A stretch of 64,000 nucleotides of DNA, taken from the NCBI RefSeq assembly GCF_963675165.1, contig NC_087392.1, positions 513,001 through 577,000 on the forward strand, in the 5' to 3' direction. Shown here one piece after another: positions 13,507-48,171 of this stretch. The translations under genes and the position numbers were made by a program. This stretch comes from Halichondria panicea. Taxonomy: Eukaryota; Porifera; Demospongiae; Suberitida; Halichondriidae. The first letter of the stretch is position 1. Each line of letters starts with the position of its first letter. The notes under the pieces are model-generated. The model was not told the origin of the DNA and ran no database searches. It saw nothing but the letters and a program-made list of their open reading frames with translations.

Positions 13507-16500
13507 TTTTGTTAGTCAGTGAGTAAACTTGTAGCTTGATAGATGCTGGTCCTCCCTCCTCTCCATTGATGACCAGTGTCACATGACTGCTCCGTCCAAT
13601 CACACCCTCCTCGTAGGCAGCTGCCAACTTGTTTACCACACTCCGTTCCACCTGCACAGAAATAAAGAGGCTGGGCTAAATATCGGAGGACAATTTATGT
13701 TCTATATAGGGGTATAATGAGATATACAGATTGTAGAAACACGGACTGTACTAGTTAGTAATAAGCTCTCAAAGTGAAGAAGTTAAGTAAGTAATGGCAC
13801 TGAGCAGTTCTACACCTAACACTGTACAAGTACACTCTAAACATTTGAGAAGCCAGATTACCTCGTGCTGAATGGACCTTGCCCCATACTTGACATTGTA
13901 GCCATCAGCCAGTACGTCCAACACCTCCTTATCCCAGCTCAACTGAATGTCATGTCTCTGGAGGGCCTGAAAAGGTAAACACTGACTAAAAACACCGCAC
14001 AACACATGACTGCAAGGCAGAAATTGAATACACGAGTTATGGCAGCTGAAAGAGTCCCTACACCATAAACAATTGATTCATTGGAGGGGGGGGGTTGCAA
14101 TTGAATATCTTTCAACAGCCATAACTTTAGTATCATTGATCCAATTTAAAAAATTTTATGATTTTCTGAAAGCTTAGAAAGAAACCTTTCAAATGATGTG
14201 TTTCGATCCAAAATTTTGTTGGGGCCATAATTTGTCATTTTTCGGCCTTGGACCATGGGCTATTATCCATGGTGTGGCCAAATTGGGAAATAGTTTTATC
14301 GCTCAAATACAAACGTTGATGACACCATTTGAAAGGTCGCTTTCTAAGCTTTTGGAAAATCAAATAATCGTTGAAATTGAGTACACGGAATTCAAGTTAT
14401 GGCAGCTGAAAGAGTCCCCGAAACCGTTGATGAGAAGGGTGCAATTGAATACCTTGCAGCAGCCATAAATTGATCCAATTTTAGATTTTCTGAAAGCTTA
14501 CATGAAGAAAGAGACTTTTCAAATGATGTTTAATGCACACAAGCAGTGTACTGACAGTGTGTTGTAGTTAGCTCACCCTCTCCTGCCAAGTGCAGAGTTC
14601 CCTCTCCACCAGCTGATTGAGCTCAGAGCGAGAGAAGGGCAGAAAGTAGAGCATCTCTGTGATGCGACCCAAGAACTCGTCTCTCTTGAAGTGGAACTGA
14701 GCAGAGAGAAAAATGAATCTCAGCAATATGAATCTCAGTCATATTGATCATTAATAGTACGTAATAATTATTTCAAATCCTACAATTCAATATGAATGAA
14801 GATGACTATTCATGGGCCCATTTCCACAAATTCACACCTTTAGTATCGGCTCCACAACTTGCTCTTTGAACTCTCTAGATATCTCAATGTGACCCTCAGG
14901 CTCTGTACAGTGTCACGGTAACAAGTGTGCTCTCTTACACAAGCTGTGTCTTACCGTCCTCAGAGTGGCGATATTTCTTTGCTGCTTTGCTGGCCTCTTT
15001 TCGTAGTTGGAGGGCATGGCTTGCAATCTCGTCACTGGCAAGGTTAGAGGTCATCACAAAAATGGCGTCCTTGCAAGAAATGGTTTTCCCCTGACCATCT
15101 GTTAGACGACCCTGGAGTAATACAATCAGGAGGGGTGAAAGTTAGCTATATATATCAAAACAGGCTATTTCGGAAAAATCCCCAAGGCTATATCTATATA
15201 GCTCATGCTTTAAATCAAGCAATGTCCAACATCCACAGTTTATGAGTGAGGGTAACAGACCTCATCGAACAGCTGCAGGAGTACAGTGAGCACGTCAGGG
15301 TGAGCCTTGTCCACCTCATCAAACAACACCACTGCATCGGGGCAGTCGCTCAGCTGTGAGGTCAGCTGACCCCCCTGGTCATAACCAACGTAGCCAGGGG
15401 GAGCCCCTATTAGTTTGGCTACCTGCAAATAATATTATGCGCTTAATAATATAAGAGCAGTGGATATACACATTGTGAACATTACCTCGTGTTTTTCTTG
15501 GAATTCAGACATATCCAATCGAATGAATCGCTGTATACTTATAAGTTATCCACTATACATGTACATGTAGCTGCTAACCTTCTTCTTGTCTTTGTGTATG
15601 TACTTGGCAATCTGTTTGGCCAGTTCTGTCTTCCCTACAAGTGGCAGAATAGAAGATGGATGCTTTTCTTATCATGCGCCAGTAAACAAGTTAGAAAATG
15701 CACAATTCTAACTGATGAGCACTCACTGATTGCTACACTAACCCGTCGCTCACCAATTCCGGACGAACCGAGGAACAAAAAGACGAGCGGATGCTCATCG
15801 TCCCCCCAGCCATTCTCCCTCCTCCGTATGGCTGCAGCAGCTGCCGTGATGGGTCCCTCCTGTCCCACCATTGCCTCCCTCAATCTATCCTCCAGGGGGA
15901 ACTGTCTCCTTTCTTCTAGTCTTCTCCTGGCCTCCATCTCCTCTATCTGTGGGAGAACATCACCATGGTAGTTAGTGGTATAGGATCACATGATGTTGAT
16001 AAGAGACCCCAATTACAATTTCTAAAAAAGTTGAGATCAGTTTGCAATTGATGATAGTTACCATGACAGTGTGTTGTTGTAGCAGAGTTAGAATCTCCTG
16101 GTTGGTACAGTAGTCTGAAGGAGCGAGTCCTCTGTGGTTCTCAATGGTGGGGTCAGCCCCACTCTCCAGTAGACACTCGACCACCTCTCTATTGTCAATG
16201 ACAATGGCATAATGGAGGGCAGTGAAACCAGAGCAGCTGACATGGTGGTTGATGAGCGAGCAGAACTCACGGTCGCGAATGAGGGCAACTGCAAGACAAT
16301 AATATAGTTTGTAAGTAGGTACACATGGTATTCAGAAACGTTCTCAAGCAAAACAGGGGAACAAGGTTTTTTGGCCATTATACACAGAGGTAGCCTTTGT
16401 TGAGGGGTTGTTTTGGGACCTGGCCTTTATATTGCAGATGGCCTTTCTTTAGGGGTGGCCATTAAGAAGGGTTCACTGTAAGTTAATAGTCACCTCTGTC

Positions 16501-17125
16501 TGACCCCATTCCCAGCTGTTGAGCTACTCTCCTAGCAGTTGAGAAATCGTCTCTCATGTTCACGTCAGCACCTCTCTCCAGTAGCAGCTGTATCTCTTGC
16601 AGGTTGCCGTTGACGACAGCAGTGTGTAGGGGGGTCCATCCCAAGGGGTGTCTTGAATTTACGTCAGCTCCCGAGTTGAGTAGCTGAGTCACTTGAGACA
16701 CGTTGTCTTGCTTGACTGCCAACATTAGCTGTCTGTCCTTACCTGTAGTACAACATAATGAGGATATAATGTACAGTATATTTGTTTAGAGTAAGGCCTG
16801 GGGGAATTATTTATTTACTATGTTGGTCAGCTCCACAAAGAATCAATGCAGTGCCCAAAAGTGCTCCAACACGACTTAGCCTCCAGCTTTGAGACTGATG
16901 GTTTTCATGTCCATCTTTCTCCTCTGAATGTTTCACAGGTTTAAATGGTGGGTGGACATGTCTGATTCTTGGGGAGTTGATAGAGCGAGTGATATAATGC
17001 TGCCTGATGTGGTGATCTTGATCATCTAGCAAGGGTACAGGGACAGAGGTTTGGTGCAATCTCCTATACAACTGTGAAGAGCATTTCCGGCTCAGAACTC
17101 TAGAAATGCATAGAAATCTGGACAT
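13502..17125 (-). CDS. CLPB: Mitochondrial AAA+ disaggregase CLPB (SKD3) with ankyrin repeats
   Basis: ATP-driven protein disaggregase of the mitochondrial intermembrane space. Twelve exons in phase, 611 residues: 16819-17125, 16494-16742, 16062-16288, 15754-15946, 15579-15634, 15486-15530, 15261-15422, 14955-15111, 14838-14902, 14577-14696, 13862-13966, 13502-13651. An Arg-rich N-terminus ([15 protein letters not shown]) suits mitochondrial import. A hydrophobic [13 protein letters not shown] at about 86-98 matches the segment that PARL removes in the mammalian protein. Ankyrin repeats fill about 105-260 ([40 protein letters not shown]). The single AAA+ domain has Walker A GSSGIGKTE, pore loop [11 protein letters not shown], Walker [14 protein letters not shown], sensor MTSNLASDE and a ClpB-type C-terminal domain with [10 protein letters not shown]. 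It is about 100 residues shorter than human CLPB, mostly in linkers and tail. Confidence 0.96.
14030..14540. repeat. Palindromic intronic element, copy 1 (CLPB intron)
   Basis: An inverted-repeat element. The left arm has GCCATAACTTTAGTATC with CTGAAAGCTTAGAAAG and CCTTTCAAATGATGT. The right arm holds the reverse complements (ACCATTTGAAAGGTCG, CTTTCTAAGCTTTTGG, AAGTTATGGCAGCTG). The core at 14252-14273 reads ACCATGGGCTAT then TATCCATGGT. The flank GTTATGGCAGCTGAAAGAGT occurs directly twice (about 14036 and 14397), and a further partial left arm follows near 14445. It takes up most of the intron between 13967 and 14576. Confidence 0.85.
16368..16490. repeat. Short interspersed repeat, copy B
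   Basis: Intronic segment in CLPB sharing the CATTATACACAGAGG core and GCCTTTGTT with 12557-12600. It continues with further GGCCTTT-type motifs (CTGGCCTTTATATTGC, GATGGCCTTTCTTTAGG) and ends GGGTTCACTGTA. Confidence 0.6.
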
Positions 17126-17273
17126 CTCAGATCAATGCCACGTGGGTGGGCTACAGATAGAACAATAAACAACTTGCCAAGAGTGCAAAGTGCATTAGGG
17201 TAGGAATTGGGAAGGGCGTGGCCAGACTATAGGGAGTGTACAGTATCTATTATACGTACATAGGTAATTAATT
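17126..17273. promoter_or_regulatory. Divergent 148-bp spacer, CLPB and NUDCD2
   Basis: 148 bp separate opposite start codons, another head-to-head pair. Confidence 0.5.
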
Positions 17274-17917
17274 ATGTCCAACTTCGATGAGAAGTCTGGT
17301 CTGGTGTACAGCAGCACTCCATGGGGGCAGTGGGCACAGACCATTGAAGAGGTGTTCATTGAAGTGAACGTGGCTGATGGCACCAGAGCCAAAGACATTG
17401 TGTGCACCATCCGCCCCAACTCTATTGATCTGACAGTACACAACCAGGGAATCAGCATAAAAGTCAGTAAGTGGCCACTGAGTTAGGTCTATAAATATGT
17501 CATGACGGCTTTTGTTGTTTTATATACCTGTAGGGGAGATGGTTCAAGACTGTTCTGGCCGATGAATGCATATGGACGTTAGGTAGGAAAACGTCGGGAA
17601 CAAAAATTTCATCAGCTCTAAATTTCTGTTAATTAACAGAAGACAATAAGATGGTTCGCATTCTGCTGGTCAAGTCTGACAGAACCCCTGCCAACTGCTG
17701 GATGTCTCTACTGGAGAATGAGTTCGAGTGTGACCCCTTTGTGTTCGATAAGATGGAGAAGAAAATGACACTGGAAAGATTTCAAAACGAGGTAAGGAAA
17801 ATGCATGCATGCAAGTGAGCTTTTTTACAATGCCTGCTTTCCCCTCAGAACCCAGGGTTTGACTTCAGTGGAGCTGAGATCACTGGAAACACATCTGGAG
17901 GGGGACCACAATGGTAG
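17274..17917 (+). CDS. NUDCD2: NudC domain-containing protein 2
   Basis: Small p23/CS-fold co-chaperone that works with Hsp90 and helps stabilise LIS1 of the dynein pathway. 152 residues from four exons: 17274-17462, 17534-17582, 17640-17791, 17849-17917. The family length is about 157. The start FDEKSGLVYSSTPWGQWAQT and TIEEVFIEVNV open a CS domain (about 14-105), with WTLEDNKMVRILL as the characteristic last strands. The C-terminal block LERFQNENPGFDFSGAEITG is the NUDCD2 hallmark and excludes NUDC itself, which carries a coiled coil. Cytosolic; no targeting signal. Confidence 0.96.
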
Positions 17918-18152
17918 CCATGCCAGAACTTTACATTTTGATTTCATTTATGCCTTCTTTTGGATTGAATCACTATAATTATATTATATTGAATACTACT
18001 TACATGTGTTTCATTTTATACAACCTACACATGCATGCTTCAAATACTAAGTATTAGATTAATCATTATAATTATAAAATAACAATATAATAATTATACA
18101 TGATGACGACATGATATATACTATACTTGGTATCTAAGACAGTTCTCAGTTT

Positions 18153-21100
18153 TTAAGACGATGTTGTAAAGGGAGTTGCCCCAGTGTTAGGTGTTGTAGC
18201 AGGTGGGGGGACTTCCTCTGGCTGCGTTTGTGGATGCAGCAGATTCCTGGAGAGGCTCGTCAGATTTGGCAGACCAGTCGACACGGGCGGCCTTGGGAGG
18301 GGGAGGGTCCCCGGTGACACGGTTTGGGGAGGAGTGTTTGAGAAAGAACTGAGTTGTGGCATTCCAGGCGGCAGTGTTGTAGCTGTACTGAGCTGGTTCA
18401 ATGGTGGCCGCACTCTGTATGGAGAGAGTAACGGCGGGTAGATGCCAGAGAAAGATCTTTGAGCAGAGGAGAGATGCTGAGTTTGTGCTTGAAGGAGTTG
18501 CACACACTGGAGCATGGTGGCTGTAGAGATGGGGGGTCCAGTTTGTTGCTGGTGCTGCTGAATTTGGACCAAATGCTGCTGTATTTGTTGGTGGTAGGCG
18601 GCTGATAACTGGGTCAGCTGGGCGATTGTGAAAGATGAAGCATTCTGATTGGACACCAGTTCAGGAGTGGAGTTAAATCGAGGAATACTTGGTTCGCTAG
18701 CCAGAGTGGGAGCGGCCGCAGTTTGTGCGAGAAAGTGTGAAGAGGCCATGAGTGTATTTGCACTTGTGGACTTGACCAGACTCGATGTAGAGGGAGGCGG
18801 GGTAATTGGTGACAATGCTATGGCAACGGTGGGGGTTACGGTAGTGAGAACGGGCTGTGATCGAGGGATGCTAATGGAGAGAGTTAGACCTTCTTTATCG
18901 TCATCTTCGTCAGGTTGGGTATCTGTAAAGAAGTAGCAAGCATTGGTTAATCCCACAATATCAACAATACATGTACATTTACATAACTATACGAGCTAAG
19001 CTCAATCCACACACCATACAAGCATCGTTCTTAGTAGGCAAGCAAATTGACAGTACACACATGCACACTCACAACTATTCTCCTCAGAAGGTAACTCCTT
19101 AGCGTGCCCCTTCATGGTCTTAGACTGCCTCGCGGTCCTATCAGTTTCCATCGCAGACTCATCCTCAGAGTCGAACTCCTCAACGTCCGATGCCCCCCGC
19201 AGGAGATCCCCCATAGGGGTAGTGGTTATAGGGACCGTGTCCATTTTCTCAGTAGGGCCTCCGGACAATAATTGATGGCTATGTGAAGATTCAGAATCCG
19301 AAGAACTTGAAGAATTTGATTCCGAATCGGACGAGTCGCTGTCTGAATTCTCAGAGACCACATCGCGACGTCTCAGGCCACGAATTTGCCCAAAATTGCT
19401 GGTGGGCTGAAGTGAAGATGAGCGTTGAAACAGTCGAGGAGTTTCCTTGAACGTGGCCGTAGGTGAGAGTGATTTGACTTTGCCAATCTCCTCGAAAGTT
19501 GATGGAAGTCTCTCCACATCTTCACCGTGTGGTAAGCCGCCTTCAGCGCTCGAGGTTGACGTCATAAACTTGCTGCTCTTTCGTCGCAAAGACTCATAGT
19601 TGCTGATGCCTAAATTGAATAGCTTGCCTCTTTCGACATGAACAATGTTCTGTGATCGTGTGCGAGTGGAAACGGGATCAATGTAGTCCTCTGGCCTCCG
19701 CCCAGTAGCATCGAGATCAGGTGGTGGGAGGTCAAGGTCTTGCTGTGTCACATACTCTGAGCCAAACACCTGCAGTTGAGAAAACTAAGGAATTTTAATA
19801 ATGTGTATTCTGCACATGTACATACATAAACAACACTGCATAAGAGAGGTAAACAAATCTCTTGACATCATTATAAATACGTTTTATGCATAACTTTGTA
19901 CTGTACATATAAGTTAGATTGCTTACTCACTCGATTACCACCGCGTCTCTTCTTCTTGGATGACCACGTTTGTTTGCCTCTTCTCTTTCTCGTCGACCGT
20001 CTGAGTGGGGTGTCAGCATTCACCTCCCTCCTATGTCTAGTGCGAATCCGAGTGCCCTCAACGATGGTGGCAGCTGCCTTGTGTTGACCCTCAGTGGTCG
20101 TTGTGGTCCCTTTAGTGGGCCTGGGGTGTTCTCCCTCTATATTCACTTCTGACTCCTCCCCCGTATCGGTACCAGGCCTTGGGACATTGTGGACGAGGGG
20201 GGACCAGTGAAGGGCATCTGGGTCGAGAGAAATTCGGACTTTGTGTCTCACTTTGTCCATGTGTGCTTCAAGCATTGTCATGTCCTTCACAAAAACAACA
20301 CGTCCATCGTCTTTCAGTTTCAACATTCCGAGCATCTGGAGGGTGGAGGCAATGTCGTGAGGATCCATTCCTGTGTCTATGCTGATCTTGCGAATACTGA
20401 GTTTGCCGTTCCCATAGTTATACAGGTACTCCATAATGGTGCTCTTCCAGTAGCTATGGTAGCTAATTCGACCCAGATCCGATAGAGGTTTCTCTGGTGA
20501 TCCAGATTGGCCTTCAACACGAGAGAGCAGATAACTGAAATCAATTAAAAATCGACCGAAACCCTGGCGTTGGTACTGTGGCATTGTCATGATACACGAG
20601 ACGTTGTACTTCTGCTGACACGATTTTTCCTTTGAGAAGTATCCTACAAGATGGCAACCTTTGCGATCGTACTGCGTCATTGCATAAAACAAGAACGGTT
20701 CGACGTCGTAATAGAGAGTCTTGTGATCCAGGAACAGCTTGGCAAGCAGACACAGATTTTGACAATAAATCTTGCTAGTCATGCCATCGACTTCGAAAAT
20801 CGATATGTCCCCCTTTCGGTATATTTCGTTGGCTGGGGGATGGAACCAGTTGCACTTGGCCCGATGGCGTTTCAGGATGGACTGGCTCTTCATGTACTTG
20901 AGGCAGAACTCGCAGAGGTAGAGGATCGGCTGCATGGCGTACTCCTGGGGGTAGGGAGAAGAGTACCACGTCTTGATCTCAAATTTTCCAAACCTGCCGA
21001 GTGGGAAATGAGGGGAACGATCAATCGAAGCGTCAGAAATACAAATTGCAAACTTTCAGTACATACATATACGTGCTTCAAAATGCTCGGCTGAACTCCA

Positions 21101-22853
21101 TAAAGTTTTACTACATATAATTATACCGACCTGATCATTGGTGGTGATCGAGCGTTAGGATTGGTCGACTTGCCCTTGAGAGAGGTGGCCATACTCTCCA
21201 GAGCCATCTGCTGAGCCTTCTTGAACAATTCGAGGTCGCTCTCGGTAACCCCAGCGGGCAGCTGTGACATTTCATCTTGCGTTTCGTCCATCATAAACAG
21301 ACCATCAGAAGTATCACCGTCCTCTCGTCTGATGCCACTCTTCTTCTTCTGTCTTCGTATGCCAGTGGTAGTGACTTCATAGTTGCTGAAATAGCTGGTA
21401 GATTTCCTCACTCGCTTGTGATTGATACAGAGGTCAGCTGGGGGCGTGTCGATGGGAGTGGAGACTGTTGATCGCCCCGCCCCCCTCTTCCTATTTGGAG
21501 CAGGCACACAGATGGGGCAAATCCAACGTCCTGTGAAAGATCACAATGTACACTGTAAGCACATACACTAGCAATACAGGCCATACATGTACATGTACAT
21601 GTACATGCATGGCTGCGTAATCTTAGGGGGTGAAAAATAGAGATCTGGTGATCAAATTTCAACAATTTTCTGATTTTCTGATAACTTAGAAGGAGCCCGT
21701 TCAGATGGTATGCTCAATTCTCAAATTTGGAACGGACGATAATTTCCAATTTTCGGAAAAATACCATGGGTTATAGCCCATGGTATTTTGTCAAAAACAG
21801 CCCCAAAAACAGACTTTTGATTTTAAGACACAATCTTAACAAGCTCATTGTAAGCTTTCAAAAAATCATAAAATTAACGTTATTGGACCACCGAAACTAA
21901 AGTTATGGCCGCTCAAAGATGCTTTATTTAGCAATAATTGGATAGTTGAGGTCAAGCAATACCATACCTTCAGGTAGGCCACTCAGAGGAGGCTCCAGAC
22001 ACTCCATGTGGAATCCCTTGTCACAAGCGTCACAGAAAAGCACATCATCAGAAGTCGCTCCCTGCTCACAGAAAAAACAACGTTTGCACTCCAGACACAA
22101 CCAAGGTTCGGCCTTGATACGCTCGAGGAAGGAAGGTGAGTATTTGAGGCAAGATGGATGAGCACTGTTTCCACACTCATGACACGATATCAACTCTTCC
22201 AGCTTCTTCTGGCGGTTGTGCTCGGAAGTTCCTAGGCAGAAGCTGCACACATCGCTTGGTTTCACTTTGGGATCAGGGAACGGGCTCAGCCTCTGAACAG
22301 GGACTTTGACTAGTTTGCCGTGCTTGATCAACTTCCCCTGGGACATTTGTCGCTCAACGGTGGTCTTTATCTGCTCGTACATCTCCGGAGATTCCAATAG
22401 TCCATGGCTCTGGCATATACTGTCTTGGATCTGACGAATGGTGGCCCCTTCGAGGCTCACAGTGAGGATGGCTTTGTTGACCATACGAATGAGATCAGGA
22501 AACAGGATAGCTTTGGATGAGGTGAGGCTCTCAGGGTCCCGATACGAAGGCATCCCTTTGTTGATGATCTTTACCACTCGACCTTCTTGTACAGCTCTAT
22601 TCAAATAACGAATTGTGGTCTTAAACGACACGCCAAACTTAATGCTCATGGTAGACGTGATTCGCTCCTCTCCAGGGCGTTGTTTTTGACCCTTGATTCG
22701 ACGAATTGCCGCAAGGAGATGGTCGAATATTATCTCTTTGTACTGGCCGTCCTCCTCTTCTTCGTCAGAGCTACTGAGTTGAGGGGAGGGGACTTCCATG
22801 GCACCTTTGATACTCCTGACTGGGGTACGGTGCTTGCGTGAGATACGACGCAT
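18153..22853 (-). CDS. KAT6: KAT6-type (MOZ/MORF) MYST histone acetyltransferase
   Basis: Nuclear histone H3 lysine acetyltransferase. Five exons in phase: 21968-22853, 21131-21530, 19931-20993, 19073-19769, 18153-18922, giving 1,271 residues. Order: winged-helix region ([20 protein letters not shown], about 45-85); two adjacent PHD fingers (about 200-305: [20 protein letters not shown] with [12 protein letters not shown], and [18 protein letters not shown] with GRWICPIC); Lys-rich linker; MYST domain from about 429 with C2HC finger [17 protein letters not shown], core [20 protein letters not shown] and [10 protein letters not shown]; basic stretch, acidic/Ser region, Gln-rich C-terminus. Winged helix plus double PHD plus MYST identifies KAT6 rather than KAT5, 7 or 8. 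The exon may start at a splice acceptor (22861), so an extra upstream exon is possible. The tail is much shorter than the ~2,000 residues of vertebrate KAT6. Confidence 0.94.
21600..21925. repeat. Palindromic intronic element, copy 2 (KAT6 intron)
   Basis: Same family as the copy at 32360-32680 but inverted relative to it. Shared blocks are AGGAGCCCGTTCAGATGG, a core AAATACCATGGGTTATAG with its mirror CCCATGGTATTTTG, and an outer arm ACTAAAGTTATGGCCGCTC. It fills about three quarters of the intron (21531-21967). Confidence 0.85.
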
Positions 22854-22861
22854 GTTCACAT

Positions 22862-23280
22862 CTGCACACGTACACATAAATTTAATAATTATAGGAATGA
22901 AAATAATTCATGGTAATTACAGGTATCGATAGTATTGTGTTGTTTTAGAATTTACGTAAATGCAAAATCGTCAGTGATGTAAGTTAGGTGGGCATTATTA
23001 TAGTGTACCCAATAATAATAAGAAAATGTTTGTATCAATACAAAATCGTGTATTAATTTTGTTTTAATATTGAACACTTTTGAAGCAAAACACAGGCTTA
23101 CATGCATGTGTATCTTGACCGTACTCTAGCTCCACTTATTCTAGCCAGGAGAGGAGGATAGAGATGACTTTTCCTAGCTGTGATATTTGTATGCTTTTTA
23201 TACAGGGTCAAAGGTCATTTTCTGCCATTTCGGCGCATGCTTATTAGGTGCCTACCCTCGTGGTTGTCTTTCTTTCCATT
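22862..23280. promoter_or_regulatory. Divergent spacer between KAT6 and RPS3
   Basis: About 420 bp between opposite starts, the longest of the divergent spacers. A pyrimidine-rich stretch TCTTTCTTTCC at 23267-23277 lies directly before the RPS3 ATG, resembling a terminal oligopyrimidine start of ribosomal protein mRNAs; if so, the RPS3 leader is only about 10-15 bases. Confidence 0.5.
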
Positions 23281-24743
<1,463 letters not shown>

Positions 24744-30398: not shown

Positions 30399-33055
30399 AT
30401 GGCTACCAGAATTCCTCCATCTGCTGGTTCTTCTTATATGCAAGCGCATGGCTATCAGCCCGCTGCTGCACGATACATGCAGGGCCACCCAAGCGTGGTA
30501 AGTACTTACTGACCTAATTATTTGTATGTTCATATGAGTATACACTGCAGGCCCGTCATGGGACCCATAGCTCAAGATCTAGTGGTCATCAGGGTCGATC
30601 CGCCACTGAACTCAACAAGAAGAGGCTAGCTGAAGCTAAACTGAAGGCTGCCCATGCGCAGAAAATGTAAGATTATTATCGTTAACTTATTGTGGATTAC
30701 TTGTTTAATACAGGAAGAAAAGGCGAAATGGAGATCGGGTTTTGTCTCAACGAGTAAGTATAATTATGTTCATTATTATAATGAATTGTACTTTAATGTC
30801 ATCTGGTTACTTAGATACGAAACCTAGTACCCGAGTCCCAAGCGTACATGGACCTGCTGACGTTTGAGCACAAATTGGATGCAACCATTACGAGGAAGAG
30901 ACTTGAGATTCAAGAGGCCATTCGAAGACCAATGAAGCAGAAACGAAAACTCAGGGTCTTCATATCCCACCAATTTGTCCCTGGAGAAGCTGAGGTGAGT
31001 TTGGGCTGGTGTGATGTCTAAATACACACACTTTACTGCCGCTGTTTTTAGGTGGTACCCAAATGGGAGCTGAAAGTAGAAGGAAGGCTTTTGGACAAGG
31101 TAATTTCTTTACCTAACTTAAAAGTACAGTATGTGAATGATTTGTATTTAGAGTGGGACTGTGGCTGATGAGCTTACGAAGATGAAGTTGACATCATTCT
31201 TCAAGACGGTGATCATTGAACTGGACAAGGAGGCTTATGGTCCCGACAACCACGTCACTGAGTGGCACAGAGGCAATCCTGAGGAAGAATGTGATGGCTT
31301 CTCTGTGAGTTATATACCCATTCACAAAGAAAGGGCTCTTCAGCCTGGTGATTCTCTGTACCTGAGTGTGTATTAATGCTGCGGTTATATCTTGTGGAGA
31401 TTATTTTTTTACTCCCTTTCAGATCTCAAGACCTGGAGAAGAGACGGTGAAGTGTACCATCCTGCTCCTACTCAACCATCAAGTAAGACAGAAGCTCTCA
31501 CTCTGTCCTTGTATTGTTCACTCCTCCACCTCTGTGCATGCAGCCTGTACAGTACAAGCTGACCAGTAAGCTTGCACGTCTACTAGGCATACACACTGCC
31601 AAGCGACCTGATATCATCAATGCTGTGTGGCAGTACATTAAGGTGGGAGTAGTATCACATTCATTTGCAATTAAGCCAATTATTGTCTTTTTCTGTTGAT
31701 TAACGAGGCCTGTCACATTTGCTTGTTGTACCGTAACGATCGAGCATACCATTTATTACTCATAGCCTATAATTATACGTAATTATAACGATTCGTTTAT
31801 TTGTGCTGTAGAGTAACAAGCTCCAAGATCCACAAGAGAGAGAGTACATCAACAATGACAAGTATTTCCAGCAGGTAACCAATTATTATCCCTATTCACA
31901 CATTTGGGTTGATGTTGTGTGTTTGATAGATCTTTGAGGTTCCTCGAATGAAGTTCACTGAGATTCCTCGAAGGGTACAGCCGCTATTAGCTCCTCCTGA
32001 CCCCATTGTCATCCATCACCTCATAAAGTACGTTTATCTAGTCATACCCAATGTGCAGAACTGCTCTAAAGCAGCTGATATCAAACACAAATCAAATATG
32101 CTTTCTGTCCTCTCCAGTGCTGATGCCCCTGAAGGTCGACGTACAGCTTGCTACGATATAGAAGTGGAAATTGTAAGTGGCTCTTCACTTTCTATTCTCT
32201 TAATGACTGCTTTTGCTTTTATACTATGGACAGGATGATCCATTGAAGGGGTCGATGCAGTCCTTCCTGATGTCCAGCACTAACCAGCAGGAGATTGCAG
32301 TCTTGGACAACAAAGTAAGTCACTGTCAGTGGAGTACACGTACGTTGTACGTACCTAGCGTTAAATGGAGAACATCTTTAAACGGCCATAACTTTAGTTA
32401 CGTTGGTCCAATAACGTTAGTTTTATGATTTTTTAAACGCTTAGGGGGCCTTTCTTATGATGTGTTAAAAATCCAATGTTTATTTTCGGCCTGTTTTTGA
32501 CAAAATACCATGGGCTATATATAGCCCATGGTATTTTCCCGAAAATAGGGATAGTATGACCCGTTTCAAATCTGGGATTTGAGCATGCCATCTGAACGGG
32601 CTCCTTCTAAGCTTTCAAAAAATCATCAAATTGTTGAATTTGGACCATCAGAACTCTAGTTACAGAGCTGATTCTAATAATTCCAACATGAACAAAATTA
32701 CGTTTGACTGCTCTCTCTTAGATTCATGACACAGTGGAGCAAGTGAACGCTATCAAACTTCAGCGAGAGTTCTACCTCGGTTTTGCGGACAACCCACAGA
32801 AGTTTATCAATGATTGGCTGGCCTCACAGAGCAGAGACCTCAAGGTCAGTAGCTTATTCTTACATTGCTGTAATAATTTAATAACATTACTCTATGCAGG
32901 CAATGAAGAACAAGATGGGGAACCCCGAGGCTGAGAGAAAGGCATCCCACTTTGAGAAGTCGTGGTGTCAGGAGACAGTGCCCAGATACTTCTATTCCAA
33001 AGTGAATCAGAGGAAGAGTGAGCTGGAGCAAGCACTTGGTATTCGTCATCCCTAA
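30399..33055 (+). CDS. SMARCD: SWI/SNF (BAF) complex subunit SMARCD/BAF60
   Basis: Accessory subunit of the BAF chromatin-remodelling complex that links the remodeller to transcription factors. 456 residues from fourteen exons in phase: 30399-30497, 30551-30666, 30714-30753, 30815-30994, 31052-31099, 31152-31304, 31423-31482, 31544-31642, 31812-31874, 31930-32027, 32118-32172, 32234-32314, 32722-32844, 32900-33055. Key blocks: basic N-terminal helix region with [50 protein letters not shown], then the SWIB domain at about 228-305 ([35 protein letters not shown]), and a C-terminal coiled region ending GIRHP. Vertebrates have three paralogues (SMARCD1-3); this looks like a single ancestral type. 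Confidence 0.96.
32360..32680. repeat. Palindromic intronic element, copy 3 (SMARCD intron)
   Basis: Same family as 21600-21925, opposite orientation. The core is a perfect 36-nt palindrome at 32502-32537, half-site AAAATACCATGGGCTATA. Outer arms carry GGCCATAACTTTAGTTACG on one side and TGGACCATCAGAACTCTAG on the other, with AACGGGCTCCTTCTAAGC between. It occupies most of the intron 32315-32721. Confidence 0.9.
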
Positions 33056-33188
33056 ACTGGACACTTTGAACCACTAAACATGCTAGTTATTATCTTGTTG
33101 TATGCTTATACATTCAATGTTTGGCCATAATTAATGTTGTCAAAATAATTATCATTGTGAACTGATTGAACATTCTGATACGGTAGTT

Positions 33189-34030: not shown

Positions 34031-34160
34031 TCTGCATTGATTTGTTTGCACATGCGCTTCAAGCATAGCAACAGAGCTTCACGAAATTTATCCTATTGAC
34101 AATAGTAGTTTGGTTGCATTAGTGCACTTACGGAAACCACGTGTTGATAAATAAAAAGCC
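34031..34160. promoter_or_regulatory. Divergent 130-bp spacer before POLR1E
   Basis: Start codons of the CCDC169-like gene and POLR1E are 130 bp apart, the shortest of the eight divergent spacers. Confidence 0.5.
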
Positions 34161-36069: not shown

Positions 36070-37192
36070 GCGTTGTTTTGTAATTTCTGTGACTCGTTTG
36101 ACTTTTTTGTGGTGTGAATTTTGATTCTAAAATGCTGTGAAGAATTTCTTAATTCCTTTCTCCAATGAAATGATATTACGTGTGAACCTACATGCATGAG
36201 GTATGAACTCATGATAGTCATGCATTGACATTGTCATAGTACCCATGCAGACAGAACAGACCCCCTGTGTCCGTTTTGCGTAGGAGCGTGAGATAGTGTT
36301 CCTAACTTGTCTACATAGTGTACATTACTAATGATATTCATAGGCATGATTTGCGCTGGGGAGAATGTTGATCTAACCTTGTGATATTGTAGCATATTGA
36401 TATGTCAACAGTTGTTAGCCTTTGAGATCCATTCCCATGGCGTTATTGATCACGTACTGTCCCTACAGGCCCCCTCCGTTGGGTTAAGGTTTTTTCCAGG
36501 TTTAATTTTAACTTAATCTCACAAAACACATAGGCCTCTCAAACTGCAGTGTTCCCCTCAACACAGGCTCTTGTGTGTGGTGGGGTTATTGTGGGGGTGT
36601 TTTGTAATCAGATTAAAGCAGTTAAACATGGATGATATGCTTGAAAAGCTATTTGAACCGTATCTAGCGAAGTAAGTATCTAGTGTGTGCATGAATGATG
36701 CATGTAACTGCTTGTACACTGCGTCCCAAGTATATAGCTATTAACGGACAGGTGAGCCCACAAGGCACTCATGGAATGTGTTATGCGGTTGTAAATGTCA
36801 GAGTAAACATATTATTGCCCTCACTTATGGTAATGGACCATGCATGCATGTTACAGTATTAACATGTCTATGACTGTAATAGCTAATTGGAGGCGATACA
36901 TTAATTAGGCTGCAGGATTGCTGTACTTTACTCGTAAGTTTCATTCTTTGAATTATTCACAACTTTATAGTCACAAGTTAAGTATAGTTCACATAAATAG
37001 CACGTTAGTACAAGTAATATTGAGCCATTTGGTATAAAGAAAAGAATTGTAAGTGTATAAGAAATATTAATTAGTGATCGGTAGTTTGAATTCATGTATC
37101 TCTTTAGTAGGCACATTAACTGTTGATTAAAACATGCAGCAAATTGAATATAAAAAGTGAATGATATGATAAGTGCAAAATGGTGATTGTGT
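36070..37192. other. Longest intergenic stretch (tail-to-tail)
   Basis: 1.1 kb between convergent POLR1E and the cadherin. The only coding hint is an ATG-led stretch at 36628-36671 (MDDMLEKLFEPYLA) followed directly by a consensus donor GTAAGT. I found no partner exon downstream, so it is not annotated as a gene. Confidence 0.4.
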
Positions 37193-40100: not shown

Positions 40101-43100
40101 TCTCCTTTGAGCCTCTAGATCAGAGAAGAAAGAGTAGTCCAGTTGAAGGTCTGCTCTGGCATCACCACGAAAACGAATAGGTGCATAGCCTGGAGAAATG
40201 AAATGTAATATTGTGTTAGAGAAAGAGTTTGTAAACAGATGTCGGTATACTTAAGTTATTGTTTATATATTCGCACTGGCAGACTGAGAGTCTGCATCGC
40301 CTGCACAAACTAATTATTGCAAGACATCTAAGCAACAGCCGATTGATATAGCTTAAACACTGCATGTACATGCAAGAAAAAGCATGGCTAGCTAGAAAGT
40401 GCCTTCCACTGCCACTGCCCTCATGTCTGCTATCATCATCTTTGAAGAGTTAACATGCACTGGCTAGCTAGAAAGTGCACTCCACTGCCCTCATGTCTGC
40501 TATTATCATCTTTGAAGGCCTTGTTAGCAGGCACTACTTGAACCACCCAGCATTCCAGCCTTAGTTAGTCAGCAAAATAGACAGCACAACGTTGTGTGTT
40601 TGTATTAGGTGCAGTGAGTTCAACAAAGTTGTTGGCCTCTATAACACCTACTCATCACAGACTTGATTACTCCCTTTAGCTTAAGCTTTAAACTTTAACT
40701 AGCTGTTGTTGCAATACTATAAACAGGCAATTAGTAAGAATGTAAACATTGTGGCTTGTAGCTATGCAGTAACTAAGACTTTCTCCCCTCCCCCCAAAAT
40801 GGATATTTCTGTTAGTCAAACTGCTTTGTTACCACTGTTTCAATACTTGTACAGCCCCCTGCATGTCTACACAAGCTCATGACAGCTGGATTTGTTGCAT
40901 CAACTAATAGCTGAGATATTATCAGAGCAACTTAATTCAGTTAACTGTCTTTGTAGACGAGCATGAAAGAATGAGAAATATGCATAGCTCCATTAATGTG
41001 GCAGAAACAATTTGTTGTGTAGCTATAAGCTCATGCAACTCACTGTCTTCTGATCCATCAATTGTTAGGTCAGGATTGGGGAGGGGCTGACATGACGCTG
41101 GGGGGAATCCTCCTATACACTTGCAATACGGCTGGGGGGCAAAGTCCACGCAGCCGGCAGTATGGTCGTTCTCGCACTGCTCAGTGTTGCAAGCATTGGA
41201 TCCAGAGTAGTGGAAACCTGCATGGAAAGATTGACAACATTCATGTTTGGGCTCTATCATGTGTATATGAAGTGCACTAGTACCTTCCATAATGTTGACT
41301 TTATCTGTTGGGCAGCCCAAGTCAATTTGCGTGCTGTTAATGAGGACACTTCTGATTGTACCCACAAACTCTGTGGCTCTGAGACGAACACTGTCGTCCA
41401 ATGAGAAGAGGTTAACTCCTCCGATAAAGAGACTACCAGCTGTTGATGGATTCTCCAGTGCCACCTCCTCACACCTGCATGGGACGAACAATGTGGTGTA
41501 ACTAATGAGATAACGAGCACAAGAATTGCATGGAGAAGATGAAAATATGAATGGAATGATGCTGGATAATTCAAATTAATAGTTTGTAGCAAAAATGATA
41601 ATGATTCATATTGCAGTTGGCTAGTTAAATATTTTTGCAGGTAGTGATAATAACAAAGGTATCGGTGCAATATGATACGTCTCCCTCTGTAAGCTTGAAC
41701 AGGCAAGTTGTCATTAACATCCATTTAGATAATGGAGTTGCCAGACTTTATCTAAAACGCAATCTCAAGGAATGGAGGTCTGCACATGTAGGAGTGCGGT
41801 AATTGCCCCGAGCAACAATCCCACTAAACCAACAACATGCACACCACATTGGTTCCCCATGAAGGGTCTAATGTAACCCACTATGGATCATTACCGGCAC
41901 ATTAGTCCGTGCACACACCATTGGGCAAATCCTGGACCAAAAAACAGAATCGAGGCGCCGTAAACAAGACAAGATCGGTATTTTCGAGCAAGCTTTGTGT
42001 GGATTTAAGGTAAAAAGGAAACGCAATTGAATTACACAGTTATTAGCTTTGTTTACTCAGAAGTGATTAAGTTCGGGTGTGTATTTTACTAAAAATATGT
42101 GTGTTCATAGGAAAGTCCCTGTGACTGTGTTGCTGCAGTCGGCAACTCCCACTGGTGTGGTTTTGACAGGTGCCTCTCAAGTGGAAATTGTCTAAACACC
42201 GAAAATTCCATCACCTGTTTATTAGGTGACTTCACGAGTCAACAATTGCAATGCAAGGAAATGAGCTCAAACTCTGGGAACCATAGACCTTAGACGGCCA
42301 GCCACGCGTGACTCCTCTACAGTCTCCGGCAGCTGCATTATATGGTTTCACTGGCACCTATCCATATACATGGCTCTCTCTCTCTCTCTAGAAAAATGCT
42401 GCTGTAAATTATTGCAAATGCTGTATAAGCTATTGTTCAAGCAATGTTTCCCATGCAGATGCATGCACGGACTGGATTGTGCAAGTGTGCATGTGGATAA
42501 CCGCATCCAGCCAAAGGGGTGGAAGCCACTTATTTCCTTCATACATCAGAGCTAGCCGCAGTGACAACATTGGGGACTAATATTAAGGTTTCCCAGGTTG
42601 CAGCCTTTAGCTCTGCAGCCACTAACAGCGTAGAGATGTTATCTTAATAGCAAATGACCACACACACAGAGATGGCTATAATCTATACACTTGGCAGCTG
42701 CTATGTAATGTTATTAGACGGCCTATGGTATGCCTCACGGGGGATTGCTATAGTCCATAGTCCAAACAGTTAACTCCCTTCCTTTTTACAGTATCACTCT
42801 CTAAATCACTGAGTTGTCAACACAGCCACAACAAAATTCACTGTTACTTTCAGGATTGGATTCATTGGGCGTTGTTGAAATTTGAGAACATAATTATACA
42901 TACATTGTTTCTTTGGTACAAATCTTCAAAAAGATCTGCACACACTTAATTCTCTCAATGTAAATAAATAAATACACTATAGCTCATATAATTATGTTTG
43001 CAAGAATACCCAACACAGAAGACATAAAGTGTCCATGAGTAGACTGGCTCAGTGGAGTTTACAAAACAATGGCTACTTTTATGGGAGCTTAACTTAGCCA

Positions 43101-46100
43101 AATAAACTTACCCAAACAGTGTTGCTCCAAATAGTGTCTCCTCCACCAGTTCAGTTTCAGCTTGTGTTTCCCAAACTTGCAATGAGACCTGCAAATAATG
43201 CATAATAAGTATGATATCACTATAATAATAATAATATACCCAAATATTTTACACACAATGGACTATTTATTACCTCAGGGGCAGTTAAATGTAATAGGGT
43301 TTAGTGTTTCAGAGAATTGGAGGGTATACACGCAACTACCCCCCTCAACATCTTGTGTTTACTACCCCCTCAACCTCGTGTGGGTACTACCCCCTCAACC
43401 TCTTGTGTTTACTACCCCCTCAACATCTTGTGATTACTACCCCCCTCAACCTCTTGTGTTTACTACCCCCCTCAACCTCTTGTGTTTACTACCCCCCTCA
43501 ACCTCTTGTGTTTACTACGAGGTGCTCAGAGATTACTATCACAACTGACAGGAAAGTCTAAAGTGCCTGTGGTCACCAAGTGGCCCCCACACACTGGTTG
43601 TCATGGCTGAGGCACTTGAGAGTTGAAACCTCAGACAAGGTGAATGGGTTAGCATATTCTACAAGTGGTAAAATTAGGGAGGAATGAATTTCAGTGGAAA
43701 CATGTGGCCATACCAGACTGACATTCATTGAACATGCCTCTTATGTGGGATATGCATTTCAGGGAATGAATTTTGTTAGTGAGCTTGGAAGTAGAGTCAT
43801 GCAGCTCTCCTAATAGTAAACATTGTGCTGTCTTTGCAAACAGTTAGTATGACACTTTATAAGTGCAATAATAATTTACTACTCTCAACTATGCAGTGTA
43901 CTTTAGTAGGTCACCCCCACCAGGGTCACTGCTTATAAAGTGATATCATAACTAGCAATTACTGAGAACGGGAAACGTCTCAAGCTACTGTCTGCAATTT
44001 ATTTACAAATTTGGCGTTGAAAAATAGAATCAACTGAGTAGACAATGCAACAATTAGCCTAGTTTGCCAAGTCTCTAATTTGCAACATTGGACATCGTTG
44101 GGAACTTGAATCCCTCCTCTTAAAGGAATGTTTGGTACCCACCCAGGGTATAAATTAGACATGGTGGTTTTCAAAATAAAACTACTTAGCTGTATGACTA
44201 AATATGGAAAGTTGCTCAAACATAGCTGGCTAAGGGTATGGCAATAATAAGCTTTATCCACTTACCTCATCTTGTCTTTGCAGTAGCACAGAGTACCATC
44301 GATCATCAGACACAAGTAGGTCACTAGTTTCATCCGTGCTTGATCCATGTTGGAATCGTAATCGTCCCTCCACTAACTCCAGTAGTACAACCTCTCCGGC
44401 CTCTCCTAGCTGAAAGAGAATCAAGCCTTCCGATCGCTTGGTCCGTAGCTCTAGATAAACTGAGTAGCTGTCACTGTTTACAATGTTAAAATGTTCGTAC
44501 TCGACATAAGAATTTGGTGAGAAAGTCAGAGTTGGTGATATGTCCACTATCACTTCAGCAAAAGCGGCCAGTCTTTCATCGCTATTATCAGTAGCTGAGA
44601 TGTTTAGTTGTACCCTTCCCCCCGAGACAGCAGTGTAGTCTATGGCAGATGAGGCGATACTGAGAGTTCCATTAGTTGGGGAAAGATGAAACCAGTCTTG
44701 TGCTGAGGGATGGTCTACGCTTTCGAGAGTGTATGTGATTGTGCCATTCCTTCCCTCATCTTCGTCGATGGCTTGCAGTATTGAAACTTCTTTGCCAACC
44801 GGAGCACCTTCTGCTATCCGTAGAGAGAAGCTGTCTTGAAGGAAGTGAGGACTGTTGTCATTAATGTCCAGTACTGTGACAGATATTGTGGCTGATCCGT
44901 TCAGAAATGGTTCAGCATCATTGAAAAATGTCAGTTCAATGGTGAAATTGGGTGTTTGTTCTCTGTCCAGTGGTGGAATCGTCAGTTTAATAAAACTTAA
45001 TGACGGAAAGGTAGGATTTGTAACAGTATAGTTAAACATGTTCTGCATATCTGAATCAGACGAGGATATGCGTACGTGTTGTTGAATACTTCTAAACTCA
45101 GAGGAATCGTCATTATCTTGAACAGCGATGATGGGGACTATAAAGATACTATTCTCCACAAAACTAAAAGTCTTGAAAGATTGACAGTTAATGCAATACG
45201 GATTATTATCATTGACATCTTCGATATTTAGAGTAACAAAAACGTTATCATTTGCATTGCTACTGGGATTTGTGGCAACGATTCTGAATTCAATTTGTTG
45301 TCGATCCTCATAATCCAACAACTGATTCAAATACATCTCCCCTGTCAAATTGTTCACCGATATAAACTTTCCTATATCAAAATCGCTATTTCCATCTGCT
45401 GTATCGACACTGTAGAATATGTCACCGTGCACTTGGTCCACATTACTGGCCGTTATGTTTGCGAAAGGGAACTGGCTACCCACCGGATGGTCCTCACGTT
45501 CATTGTACACAACACTAGTAACAGGAAATGTTGGTGGCTCGTCTGGCAAGTCAATAATGTCTAAAATGATCAGTTGATTGAAAATCTGAGGAATGTCTCC
45601 CATGTCCCTGATGGTTACAGTCAGGTTGAAGCGAGTGTTTGCGGCACCAGAAGTCAGGCTATTCTCAAGTACTAGAATCCTGGAAGGGGAGTTGGGAACT
45701 GAACCAAGGGGAACTTGAATGCTGAAATAACCTGCTTCGTTACCATTGGTTATTTCAAATGTCGTTGTACCGTTTTGATCACGATCTTCATCGACAGGTT
45801 CAAGTCTGAGAATTTCTTGGTTAGGTGCAGCATTCTCTGATAATGTCTGCATTTGTGGCTGCTGAAGTTCAAAGAATCGAGGTACATTGTCATTCACATC
45901 CAAAATTGTTATGATGATTGTTTCTGTTTGGGTATTGTAGGCTACAATGCACCGTAGAACATCGGACCCTGTCGTTTGTACAACAGCCTCTCTGTCGATG
46001 TCTTTTGTAGTTCTTATGCTCCCAGAGTCATCAATAGTGAAGAATAGATTGCAATGCTCTCCACTAGGGCCTTCAAAACTGTATGGACAGAGATAAATAG

Positions 46101-46299
46101 CTCAGCTTTATACTATTAAGATGATTAACAAATTAGATTTTTAGTAGCCTCTTTACCTGAAGTCAGTTGGATCTGCAGGTACTTGTATCTGACCAACCAA
46201 TTGATTGTTTCCAGTATTCTCCACAATGCTGAACTCATAGTCAACTGCTTGCACAAGCAGCAATAAACTTGCGCTTATTACTAATGCAACCCATGCCAT
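37193..46299 (-). CDS. Cadherin-LamG-EGF transmembrane receptor, 1,728 residues
   Basis: Predicted single-pass adhesion receptor. Six exons in phase: 46157-46299, 44266-46078, 43112-43188, 41044-41474, 39933-40189, 37193-39658. Signal peptide at 1-19 (VALVISASLLLLLVQA); five cadherin repeats to about 560, with linkers LDVNDNVPRF, IEDVNDNNPY and VLDINDNSPHF; LamG (about 565-735); Cys-rich EGF-like module (about 765-805); second LamG (about 822-1040) interrupted by a furin-type motif RRSKR at about 863; EGF (CELCDLTSCLNNSECV start); transmembrane helix IIAGSVGAGLLIMAIVLVIV at about 1105-1130; cytoplasmic tail of about 600 residues rich in Ser, Pro and Arg. No classical catenin-binding motif is obvious. 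It ends HQFDV, compatible with a class II PDZ ligand. Domain order recalls the C-terminal parts of FAT and CELSR cadherins, but the ectodomain is short. Confidence 0.9.
40047..40061 (-). other. Furin-type cleavage motif in the 1,728-residue cadherin
   Basis: Codons for Arg-Arg-Ser-Lys-Arg, followed by Ala-Ala-Gln, in a Thr/Asn-rich insertion inside the second LamG domain. It fits the R-x-K/R-R furin consensus and lies in the extracellular part. Confidence 0.55.
40384..40520. repeat. Direct duplication of about 62 bp in a cadherin intron
   Basis: Two adjacent copies share GGCTAGCTAGAAAGTGC, CCACTGCCCTCATGTCTGCT and ATCATCTTTGAAG; they differ by a few substitutions and a 6-base insertion. Confidence 0.85.
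41475..43111. other. 1.6-kb intron of the 1,728-residue cadherin
   Basis: No nested gene, RNA gene or recognisable transposon is seen. A short CT run (about 42374-42390) is the only simple repeat. Confidence 0.4.
43344..43518. repeat. Minisatellite, about 25-26 bp x 7, in a cadherin intron
   Basis: Seven head-to-tail units of consensus CTCAACCTCTTGTGTTTACT followed by ACCCC(C). Units 1 and 4 carry CTCAACATC and unit 2 CTCAACCTCGTGTGGG. The boundary phrase CAACTACCCCCCTCA also appears inside the intronic element near 47180. Confidence 0.92.
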
Positions 46300-46584
46300 C
46301 CTAAACTGTAGCTTGCATCCAACGGTCAATAATTGATAGTTGGCATTATAATTGTGGCTAACAGTATTTATAGTAATGTAAGTGGGTGGGGCTCACATAA
46401 TAGTTCTTCCTGCAGAGTAAGGGGCGGGGCTCAGAAGGTTTCTTCCTGCTTGCCAGCAGAGCTAGAGAGGACTGAAGTACGTATTTACTGTAGTCGGGAA
46501 GTCACTGTGCTGAGCTGAGTGCAACTTGGAATCTTTTCTCTTGAAATCACCATCACAAAGACGAAGTACTATTAAGGCTAAGCT
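46300..46584. promoter_or_regulatory. Divergent 285-bp spacer, cadherin and EXPERA gene
   Basis: Contains a GC-rich near-repeat (GTGGGTGGGGCTCAC and GGGGCGGGGCTCAGAAGG, about 46381-46440) that could bind GC-box (Sp/KLF-type) factors. This is inference from the motif only. Confidence 0.45.
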
Positions 46585-48171
46585 ATGGGTTCAAGGTTTG
46601 TTCAGGATGGTCCAATCGCATTGCATACATGTTTAATATTTAATATTTCATCCATCGGACCAACTTTTAAAAGGATAGGGCTTTTGGTTTTGCTTTAAAA
46701 TCGGAGGTGTGTTGTTGGGGGACGGTAAAATAATTATGGTAAAACTGGTTGTTTGGTAGTGCTTCGAACGCTTTTGGGCATAGATAGTAGAAACTAAGCT
46801 CTATCATCACAAAGTTGATCTCACCCAAATTAGTATGCTTAGCGCCTAAGGCTAAGCTGCAGTAAAGATAGTAAAAGCTGTATTAAAATGAGAAGCATTA
46901 ATAAATGAGTGTTTGTCTATTTCCTCCCATGCAGGCTGGCCATTACCTGGTTCTCCCTTAGCTCTCTGGTTGTCATCTGGGACGCCCTGTTTGTGTTTTT
47001 GCGCCCGCGGTCTTTGCCAGGGGGAGACCTGCACTTCTTGTTCAAGCCGTGTATGTTCTATACTTATACCTACCTATGATTAGTAAGGTCGAAAATTGAC
47101 AAATTAAGGCCCCCAAAAAATTTTGGCATAATCGTTTGAAATAAGCTTTCAATCATTGACATTGGATTAACGGTACTGTTCAACTACCCCCCTCAGAATA
47201 GTACTATCTTTGGTTTAATTATGGGCTCTTTCAGCTACCATAACTTAAATTTCGTGGATCCAATTTCAACGATTTTATGATTTTCTGAAAGCTTAGAAAG
47301 AGACCTTTCAAATGGTATCATCAAAGTTCATATTCGAGCTATAAAACTACTTCCCAATTTGGCCACACCATGGATAATAGCCCATGGTCCAAAGCCGAAA
47401 AATGACAAATTATGGTCCCGAATAAATGTTGGATTGAAACACATCATTTGAAAGGTCTCTTTCTAAGCTTTCAGAAAATCAAAAAATGTTTGACATTGGA
47501 TTAATGGTACTAAAGTTATGGCCGTTGAAAGATGTCAACTACCCCGCCCCCCCACAGCAATAGTACATGTTCGGAGACTTTTTTAGCTGCTATAACTTGA
47601 ATTCCGTGGATTCCCATGCAGATGGTCTCTACATCACAGTGGATACAAACTATGGGGACATGGAGCATTCATTCACCATTTGTCAAAGCTGGTAAGTTTG
47701 TGGAATGGCATGTAATGGTTTCTCTAAAAAGTTTCAAACAGAAGTATTTCCCCTGCAGGATGAATGTGGCTGAAGTGTGCCTGCAGCTGTACACTGTAGT
47801 ACTGGTAAGTTGCTGCTTTGTAATGATTGCATGCATTGTTAAATTAGCAACTCAAAATTTGTTTCCCTATTTGAGGTGAAAAATTCTTCTACATAATTAT
47901 AACCCTGCAGTTGCTGAAGGGCCAAAAAAGTGCCTCCTTTTGGGCCTTTTTGGTGAGTTCTCTCACTCTATGGAAGACCCTCATCTACATGCTCCAGTAC
48001 ACTTCCCTCTGCAATGGAAGCCATCTTGTCCAACACCTTGACTGGTCTACGTTCCTGTGTCTGTTCATCGTACCCAATGGAGTCTGGATTGTTGTGCCAT
48101 CAATTTTCTTGTTTTCTTATGGAGCTGAAATTCTAAACATTGTGGCTACTCACAAGGAGAAGAAGCGCTAG
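46585..48171 (+). CDS. EXPERA-like four-pass membrane protein
   Basis: 167 residues from five exons in phase: 46585-46595, 46935-47050, 47622-47691, 47759-47804, 47911-48171. The first exon codes only M-G-S plus two bases. Four hydrophobic segments are visible: SLSSLVVIWDALFVFL (about 10-27), NVAEVCLQLYTVVLLL (about 67-83), SFWAFLVSSLTLWKTLIYML (about 88-110) and TFLCLFIVPNGVWIVVPSIF (about 130-152). The arrangement and the late N-G-x-W-x-x-x-P motif resemble the EXPERA fold shared by emopamil-binding protein, TM6SF and TMEM97. A Lys-rich end (THKEKKR) could be an ER-retrieval-like signal. A sterol-related role at the ER is plausible from the fold, not shown. It lies between two cadherin genes on the opposite strand. 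Confidence 0.75.
47100..47612. repeat. Palindromic intronic element, copy 4 (EXPERA gene intron)
   Basis: Inverted relative to the copy at 14030-14540 and of the same subtype. Arms include CTGAAAGCTTAGAAAGAGAC, TTTCAAATGG and the mirrored ATCATTTGAAAGGTCTC, CTTTCTAAGCTTTCAG; the core is at 47367-47388 (ACCATGGATAAT then AGCCCATGGT). Outer phrases CAACTACCCC occur on both sides. A third arm piece, AGCTGCTATAACTTGAATTC, reaches to about 10 bp from the 3' splice site at 47621. The element fills nearly the whole 571-bp intron. Confidence 0.88.

Follow-up and report, generated by a model that had tools for sequence, protein, structure and literature searches.

Introduction

Among the systems closest to the repeat family described here, Tetris of Drosophila virilis is a foldback transposon that has been a source of satellite DNA, and the accessible part of its description reports ~220-bp tandem repeats inside the arms and 8-10 bp target-site duplications (TSDs), and gives its autonomous partner as unidentified (PMC4079207). 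In the Pacific oyster the Cg_HINE elements are non-autonomous Helentrons with satellite-like repeats, characterized in the portion of that report available to us by two modules, a 3' palindrome and a T-rich insertion site (PMC7492417). Introners, as outlined in the accessible part of PMC9860276, are non-autonomous repeats found in introns, some of them with inverted repeats, and they supply the intron itself. With respect to chromosomal position, the available part of a study of Caenorhabditis elegans describes repeat classes that are enriched on the autosome arms, where there are fewer essential and conserved genes (PMC9071541).

Here we analyse a 64-kb stretch of DNA from the sponge Halichondria panicea (hereafter the window) that carries four copies of a hairpin repeat, together with further copies elsewhere in the genome. 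Similar to Tetris as described in that excerpt (PMC4079207), the repeat is a non-coding foldback with long inverted repeats and satellite-like tandem arrays, but unlike Tetris its repeat unit is the whole ~350-bp hairpin and no TSD was seen. It shares with Cg_HINE, as far as the accessible description goes (PMC7492417), a lack of TSDs, subterminal inverted repeats and dispersed satellite-like units, whereas the two modules, 3' palindrome and T-rich insertion site were not seen in this repeat. Like the introners covered in the available text (PMC9860276) it is a non-autonomous repeat with inverted repeats that sits in introns, and unlike them it leaves the splice sites outside the element in 48/50 host introns, which without it would mostly be of normal size. 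Finally, similar to the repeats of the C. elegans arms (PMC9071541, in part) its consensus-like copies gather in the outer zones of chromosomes, although in our samples these zones are more coding-dense than the interior. We consider it likely that these copies represent a dispersed, non-coding foldback (MITE-like) family of ~350-bp units that forms satellite-like arrays and was inserted into existing short introns.

Structure of the repeat unit

A preliminary description of this DNA had proposed four related inverted-repeat elements in two subtypes (copies 1 and 4; copies 2 and 3), the members of each subtype being mutually inverted, and our alignments bear this out with ends shifted by up to ~35 nt (Table 1). 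Copy 1 matches the reverse complement of copy 4 over 331 nt at 87%, and copy 2 that of copy 3 over 113 nt at 81% and a further 71 nt at 90%; within a single copy the arms pair along ~90 nt, with 77% in copy 1 and 84% in copy 4. Scanning the window for either subfamily (blastn, word 7, E 1e-4) gave no fifth copy at this threshold. The arm motif TTTCTGAAAGCTTAGAAAGNNNCC, allowing up to 3 mismatches, occurs at 6 sites in the window versus 0.02 expected from shuffles, and all 6 fall within copies 1-4.

Table 1. Positions of the four repeat copies, their central palindromes and their host introns in the window
Feature	Position	Strand	Remarks
Copy 1	14020..14529	+	subfamily A, ~1.5 head-to-tail units
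Copy 1, full unit	about 14093-14440		part-units on both sides
Copy 1, central palindrome region (CCATGG pair)	14251..14273	+	read by eye
Copy 2	21635..21930	-	subfamily B, 0.87 unit
Copy 3	32353..32692	+	subfamily B, one unit (0.99)
Copy 3, central palindrome	32490..32549	+	two 30-nt arms, 87%
Copy 4	47085..47611	-	subfamily A, ~1.6 head-to-tail units
Host intron of copy 1 (CLPB-like gene)	13967..14576	-	610 bp, 84% element
Host intron of copy 2 (KAT6/MOZ-like gene, within double PHD finger)	21531..21967	-	437 bp, 68% element
Host intron of copy 3 (SMARCD/BAF60-like gene)	32315..32721	+	407 bp, 84% element
Host intron of copy 4 (membrane-protein-like gene)	47051..47621	+	571 bp, 92% element

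A repeat unit of ~350 bp, defined from 22 A-type and 28 B-type sequences, consists of a single long imperfect inverted repeat centred on CCATGG palindromes; the central palindrome noted at the outset is found in both subfamilies, as ACCATGGGCTATTATCCATGGT in A and as ACCATGGGCTATATATAGCCCATGGT in B (copy 3). The inverted repeat is flanked by two tails of unequal length, which in tandem copies join as a G-run linker (...GATTAAACGGAGGGGGG / TGTAGTTGAACATC... in subfamily A and ...AATGAAGGGGACC / TAGCGTTAAATAGAGC... in subfamily B). The two subfamilies can be aligned along most of their length, with 66-69% in long matches. Copy 3 has a predicted fold of -111.3 kcal/mol (z -7.6 versus 100 shuffles) and a second window copy one of -115 kcal/mol (z -6.7, again versus 100 shuffles), both being predicted as one long hairpin whose stem covers almost the entire unit. 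A kept two-sided change was seen in 5/42 predicted pairs of subfamily B and 1/40 of subfamily A, the predicted A stem being almost without variation and hence uninformative for or against pairing. This scarcity of covariation fits decaying copies of mobile or array-derived DNA.

Copy number, arrays and ends

Queried genome-wide with a consensus and an arm motif, as the preliminary description had suggested, the family extends well beyond the window. Across the 131.5-Mb genome a 24-nt arm motif is found 1,635 times when at most one mismatch is allowed, compared with 0 times for its reversed control. First-look searches yielded 1,593 and 1,820 A candidates and 1,133 and 1,731 B candidates (40 scored per search), and the 40 best-scoring matches agree with their consensus at 90-95% in A (40 scored of 1,820) and 87-94% in B (40 scored of 1,731). 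We estimate the family to be of the order of a thousand copies or more, a figure that is approximate rather than exact. The longest array that we encountered has ~7 head-to-tail units (C11:727984-730391) and several others have 2-3 units, while 23/29 B loci, picked as best hits, hold about one unit or less. The arm motif had no exact match outside the H. panicea genome in the genome and viral contig collections searched, and a literature search with most subscription journals outside its coverage found no earlier description of the repeat family.

The ends of the units are ragged. No TSD was found in 31 single copies (mean best direct repeat 4.87 versus 4.92 for mismatched flanks), a search that could overlook a 2-bp duplication, and sharp terminal repeats are absent, as the inverted repeat starts inside the unequal tails and the ends vary over ~30 nt. 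Visual inspection of 29 B copies likewise showed no fixed termini and no constant T-rich site of insertion. Starts are nevertheless not random: in the motif-selected loci L039-L058, counted without four members of one gene family, 14/19 A placements begin no more than 26 nt from the start of a unit, that is in the linker, versus ~15% expected if random, as do 12 of the 14 placements with a length of 0.8 unit or more. We found no empty site among the paralogues of an amplified gene (all four that were fetched carry the element) or among the collected sequences.

The foldback or MITE-type transposon suggested earlier is supported by the structure, copy number, two subfamilies and occurrence in both orientations, while no TSD and no sharp terminal repeats were found. 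As in MITEs, the element is short, non-coding, built on inverted repeats and present in high copy number, with the sharp terminal inverted repeats and TSD of that class missing; as in foldback elements, long inverted repeats form most of it, its arrays being of whole units, with the ~8-10 bp TSD seen in Tetris missing. Without TSDs or sharp terminal repeats we assign the repeat to no cut-and-paste family, nor to any other named superfamily, and call it MITE-like by structure. Given the same lack of TSDs and the ends that are ragged within the linker, our guess is that capture of array-derived or hairpin DNA at breaks, or a rolling-circle type of copying, has a slight edge over cut-and-paste with subsequently eroded ends.

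Host introns and the intron background

All four window copies had been placed in introns, with three or more occupying most of their intron, and both points hold, the element making up 68-92% of each (Table 1). With splice sites located by hand, removal of the intron from the host of copy 1 leaves a protein that aligns gap-free to CLPB (phmmer, 7us2, 2.2e-30). The spliced host of copy 2 aligns to KAT6A (5b75, 6.1e-36) with a continuous junction and one 1-residue gap elsewhere, and that of copy 3 to SMARCD (6lth, 7.4e-24) with no gap at the junction. The host protein of copy 4 has no Pfam match and the gene finder misplaced its gene, so this intron is called from splice signals (GT..AG) and kept frame only, with 10 nt between the end of the element and the exon.

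A location 'all in introns' requires a background rate before it can be called special. We therefore used a home-made HMM gene finder trained on the 64-kb window, which labels 59% of it as coding, 32% as intron and 9% as other; intron thus makes up 79% of the non-coding DNA in the window, and the chance that 4/4 copies are intronic is 0.39. Elsewhere in the genome we fetched loci as best hits (L002-L038), as motif hits on contigs C1-C3 (L039-L058) or as random distal stretches (L061, L064), and predicted introns hold 52 of their 57 element placements and N the other 5, leaving 0 in exons. Once 7 near-duplicates are taken out (L021, L033, L041, L042, L055, L058 and the second piece in L064), 47/50 placements are in predicted introns and 3 in N. 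With this finder, introns account for 0.88 of the non-coding DNA in ten distal 5-kb samples and 0.94 in ten interior samples, where one of the ten interior stretches contains 2,501 N and has lowered apparent values, and where the 'intron' label may take in intergenic DNA between same-strand genes. Exons make up 45% of the distal samples, yet 0/57 copies lie in predicted exons. The share of elements in introns is thus close to background, with no clear preference for introns within non-coding DNA and with exons avoided: of the earlier proposal that the element is tolerated only in introns, the avoidance of exons survives (0/57), and the intron share (52/57) is about what the background (79%, 88%, 94%) already provides.

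The gene finder labels 8-13% of simulated DNA as coding. It reproduces three of the hand-found introns exactly, which is no independent test since the interiors of all four host introns served as non-coding seeds and the neighbouring KAT6 exons as coding seeds. Independent support for the introns is provided by the protein alignments and by Pfam matches: among 20 of the 46 junction-spanning predicted proteins, 14/20 have a match and in 11/20 the domain runs through the junction.

Alternative origins of the elements and their introns

The preliminary description also raised the possibility of introner-like elements, in which insertion into coding sequence would have given rise to the host intron itself. 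We regard this as highly improbable for the family, since in 50 host introns (46 loci plus the four window copies) both donor and acceptor lie outside the element in 48/50, at variable distances; over all 50 introns the medians are 50 nt to the donor (5-95% range 6-208 nt) and 84 nt to the acceptor (23-366 nt). The exceptions, which would favour an introner, are L024 and L026, both predicted introns, where the alignment of the element reaches over the predicted donor (overlaps of 27 and 4 nt). In the other 48 the element neither supplies the splice sites nor coincides with the intron, and of the 50 elements 20 lie sense and 30 antisense to their gene. Subtraction of the element leaves a median of 158 nt, mostly a normal short intron. 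An origin as introner would account for the observation that most of the intron is element and that 6/50 introns have less than 46 nt left, where the 5th percentile of element-free introns (those below 40 nt excluded) is 46-59. Against it, no direct repeat flanking the intron was seen by eye in 5 of the 6 shortest cases. An introner origin would also agree with a residual length that does not scale with intron length, contrary to random insertion: simulated length-proportional insertion gives mean medians of 231-818 depending on the intron set versus the 158 observed, a length argument that is weakened by the gene finder overcalling long introns. Insertion into old introns alone does not explain the short residuals. 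Several of the hosts with short residuals appear to be METAP1-, MCM-, NCAPH- and RyR-like, and Pfam finds a zf-C6H2 domain in the METAP1-like and an MCM domain in the MCM-like protein.

Satellite DNA with dispersed monomers, spread for instance through extrachromosomal circles and with an incidental hairpin, is a possible but doubtful source of the copies. Arrays reach ~7 units head to tail, copies 1 and 4 are part-arrays, the 31 copies searched have no TSD, and molluscs have short dispersed satDNA arrays according to the accessible parts of two reports (PMC5139131, PMC7492417). Head-to-tail monomer arrays are indeed a feature of satellites, yet the 23/29 B loci (best hits) with about one unit or less are single, and the starts are not randomly permuted (14/19 A placements, motif-selected loci). 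Satellite monomers permuted at random around a circle find no support as such, since most units begin in the linker. A non-autonomous Helentron or HINE-type rolling-circle element appears unlikely: it would share the lack of TSDs, the inverted repeats inset from the ends with their unequal tails, and the tandem copies, but neither fixed termini nor a constant T-rich site was seen by eye in the 29 B copies, and the entire element is a hairpin rather than two modules flanking tandem repeats. Least credible of all is an intronic RNA hairpin with a conserved function, such as a small-RNA precursor or an editing substrate. Strong predicted folds would be expected of it (z -7.6 and -6.7), and the near-invariant predicted A stem, which by itself is neutral on pairing, could be accommodated, but two-sided changes are kept in so few of the predicted pairs (5/42 in B, 1/40 in A) and the elements are present in genes in both sense and antisense orientation. 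An RNA function was accordingly set aside, as folds and covariation lend it no support and the stem pairs of subfamily A vary too little to tell.

The family is best read as a non-coding repeat of a familiar kind and not as a maker of introns. Copy number, structure, arrays, predicted intron context, avoidance of exons and the end enrichment of consensus-like copies are established directly; we infer in addition that the repeat would move as DNA by borrowed machinery and that the introns predate the elements. The unit is a long imperfect hairpin with two short unequal tails, which form the G-rich linker when units lie head to tail, and it occurs in two or more subfamilies, both singly and in short tandem arrays. 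Copies would have inserted in either orientation into short introns already present, and insertions into exons would not have survived; consensus-like copies are gathered in the outer ~1 Mb of chromosomes, in DNA that is apparently gene-dense. Hairpin repeats of this kind may influence how long introns are in a compact genome, a single insertion taking a short intron to 350-600 bp.

Distribution along the chromosomes

The concentration of consensus-like copies at chromosome ends is a more interesting fact than their location in introns. The 17 largest contigs, which hold nearly all of the DNA, range from C1 (18.1 Mb) down to C17 (5.7 Mb), the sizes of C6, C9 and C11 being interpolated from size order. 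Exact arm patterns, which report every site, place 28/35 sites of subfamily A and 19/24 of subfamily B in the outermost 1 Mb at either end, where 26% would be expected (p 4e-11 and 8e-8); the A figure omits an amplified block of ten sites on C3 and becomes 38/45 if these are kept. Because exact-match and best-hit searches favour consensus-like copies, the end enrichment holds for such copies only. On C2, 25/27 arm-motif sites are within 1 Mb of an end, and among the matches listed by the consensus searches for A and B (40 scored each) all are within 1.5 Mb of a contig end. Moreover, the element is present in 2/10 random stretches 400 kb from an end versus 0/10 interior ones. Coding density is also higher in the outer samples than in the interior (0.45 versus 0.19, p 0.002, n=10 each), so that part of the end enrichment may track gene density; the density ratio for A is about elevenfold (28 in 26% of the DNA versus 7 in 74%), which exceeds the 2.4-fold difference in coding.

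This gathering of consensus-like copies at the ends, in apparently gene-dense DNA, may link the spread of a repeat to chromosome-scale features such as recombination. It is a long shot that the family marks the outer zones because its hairpin units are captured at frequent breaks there, the smallest introns (23-45 nt left) then being a subset made or rescued by the insertion. Copies away from the ends are found on C6 at 2.2-2.8 Mb, on C11 at 3.6 Mb, on C3 at 6.7 Mb and on C1 at 4.8 and 10.1 Mb. The window (C16:513001-577000) itself lies inside the outer chromosome zone that is rich in consensus-like copies.

Element copies and their surroundings

Duplicate introns (loci L010 and L021), whose flanks are 94% and 87% similar, hold elements of 1.0 and 1.3 units respectively, showing that the number of element units has been altered in place. 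A few consensus-like copies lie at 2.2-2.8 Mb of the large contig C6, distant from the contig ends, and these non-terminal copies might be the remnant of an old chromosome fusion or rearrangement. We also found that in our small set of 5-kb samples (L059-L078) the predicted coding share of the outer ones is about 2.4 times that of the interior ones, and chromosome ends may be gene-dense in the compact H. panicea genome.

We additionally observed an amplified gene family on two other large contigs, at C3 0.07-0.77 Mb and C1 15.5-17.2 Mb (loci L041-L043, L055, L058 and L079-L082), with 84 candidates, 40 of which were scored. The family appears to be a fusion, in which a differing 5' part is joined to exons that, in our reading, resemble the terminal portion of a phenylalanyl-tRNA synthetase beta gene. 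The switch point lies within an intron, immediately adjoining an A-type element.

Other features of the window

The sequence GGGGGGTAGT is present both in the reverse complement of the minisatellite and in the A-type linker, a sharing from which we suggest that the two may have a common origin. The long open reading frame carries cadherin-type motifs (11 LD[RYF]E and 12 DxND[NHY]), and apparently encodes a giant cadherin-like protein in one exon.

Coordinates of the two features within the window
Feature	Position	Strand	Description
Minisatellite	43335-43518		26-bp repeat
Open reading frame	51084-64000	minus	uninterrupted for 4,305 codons
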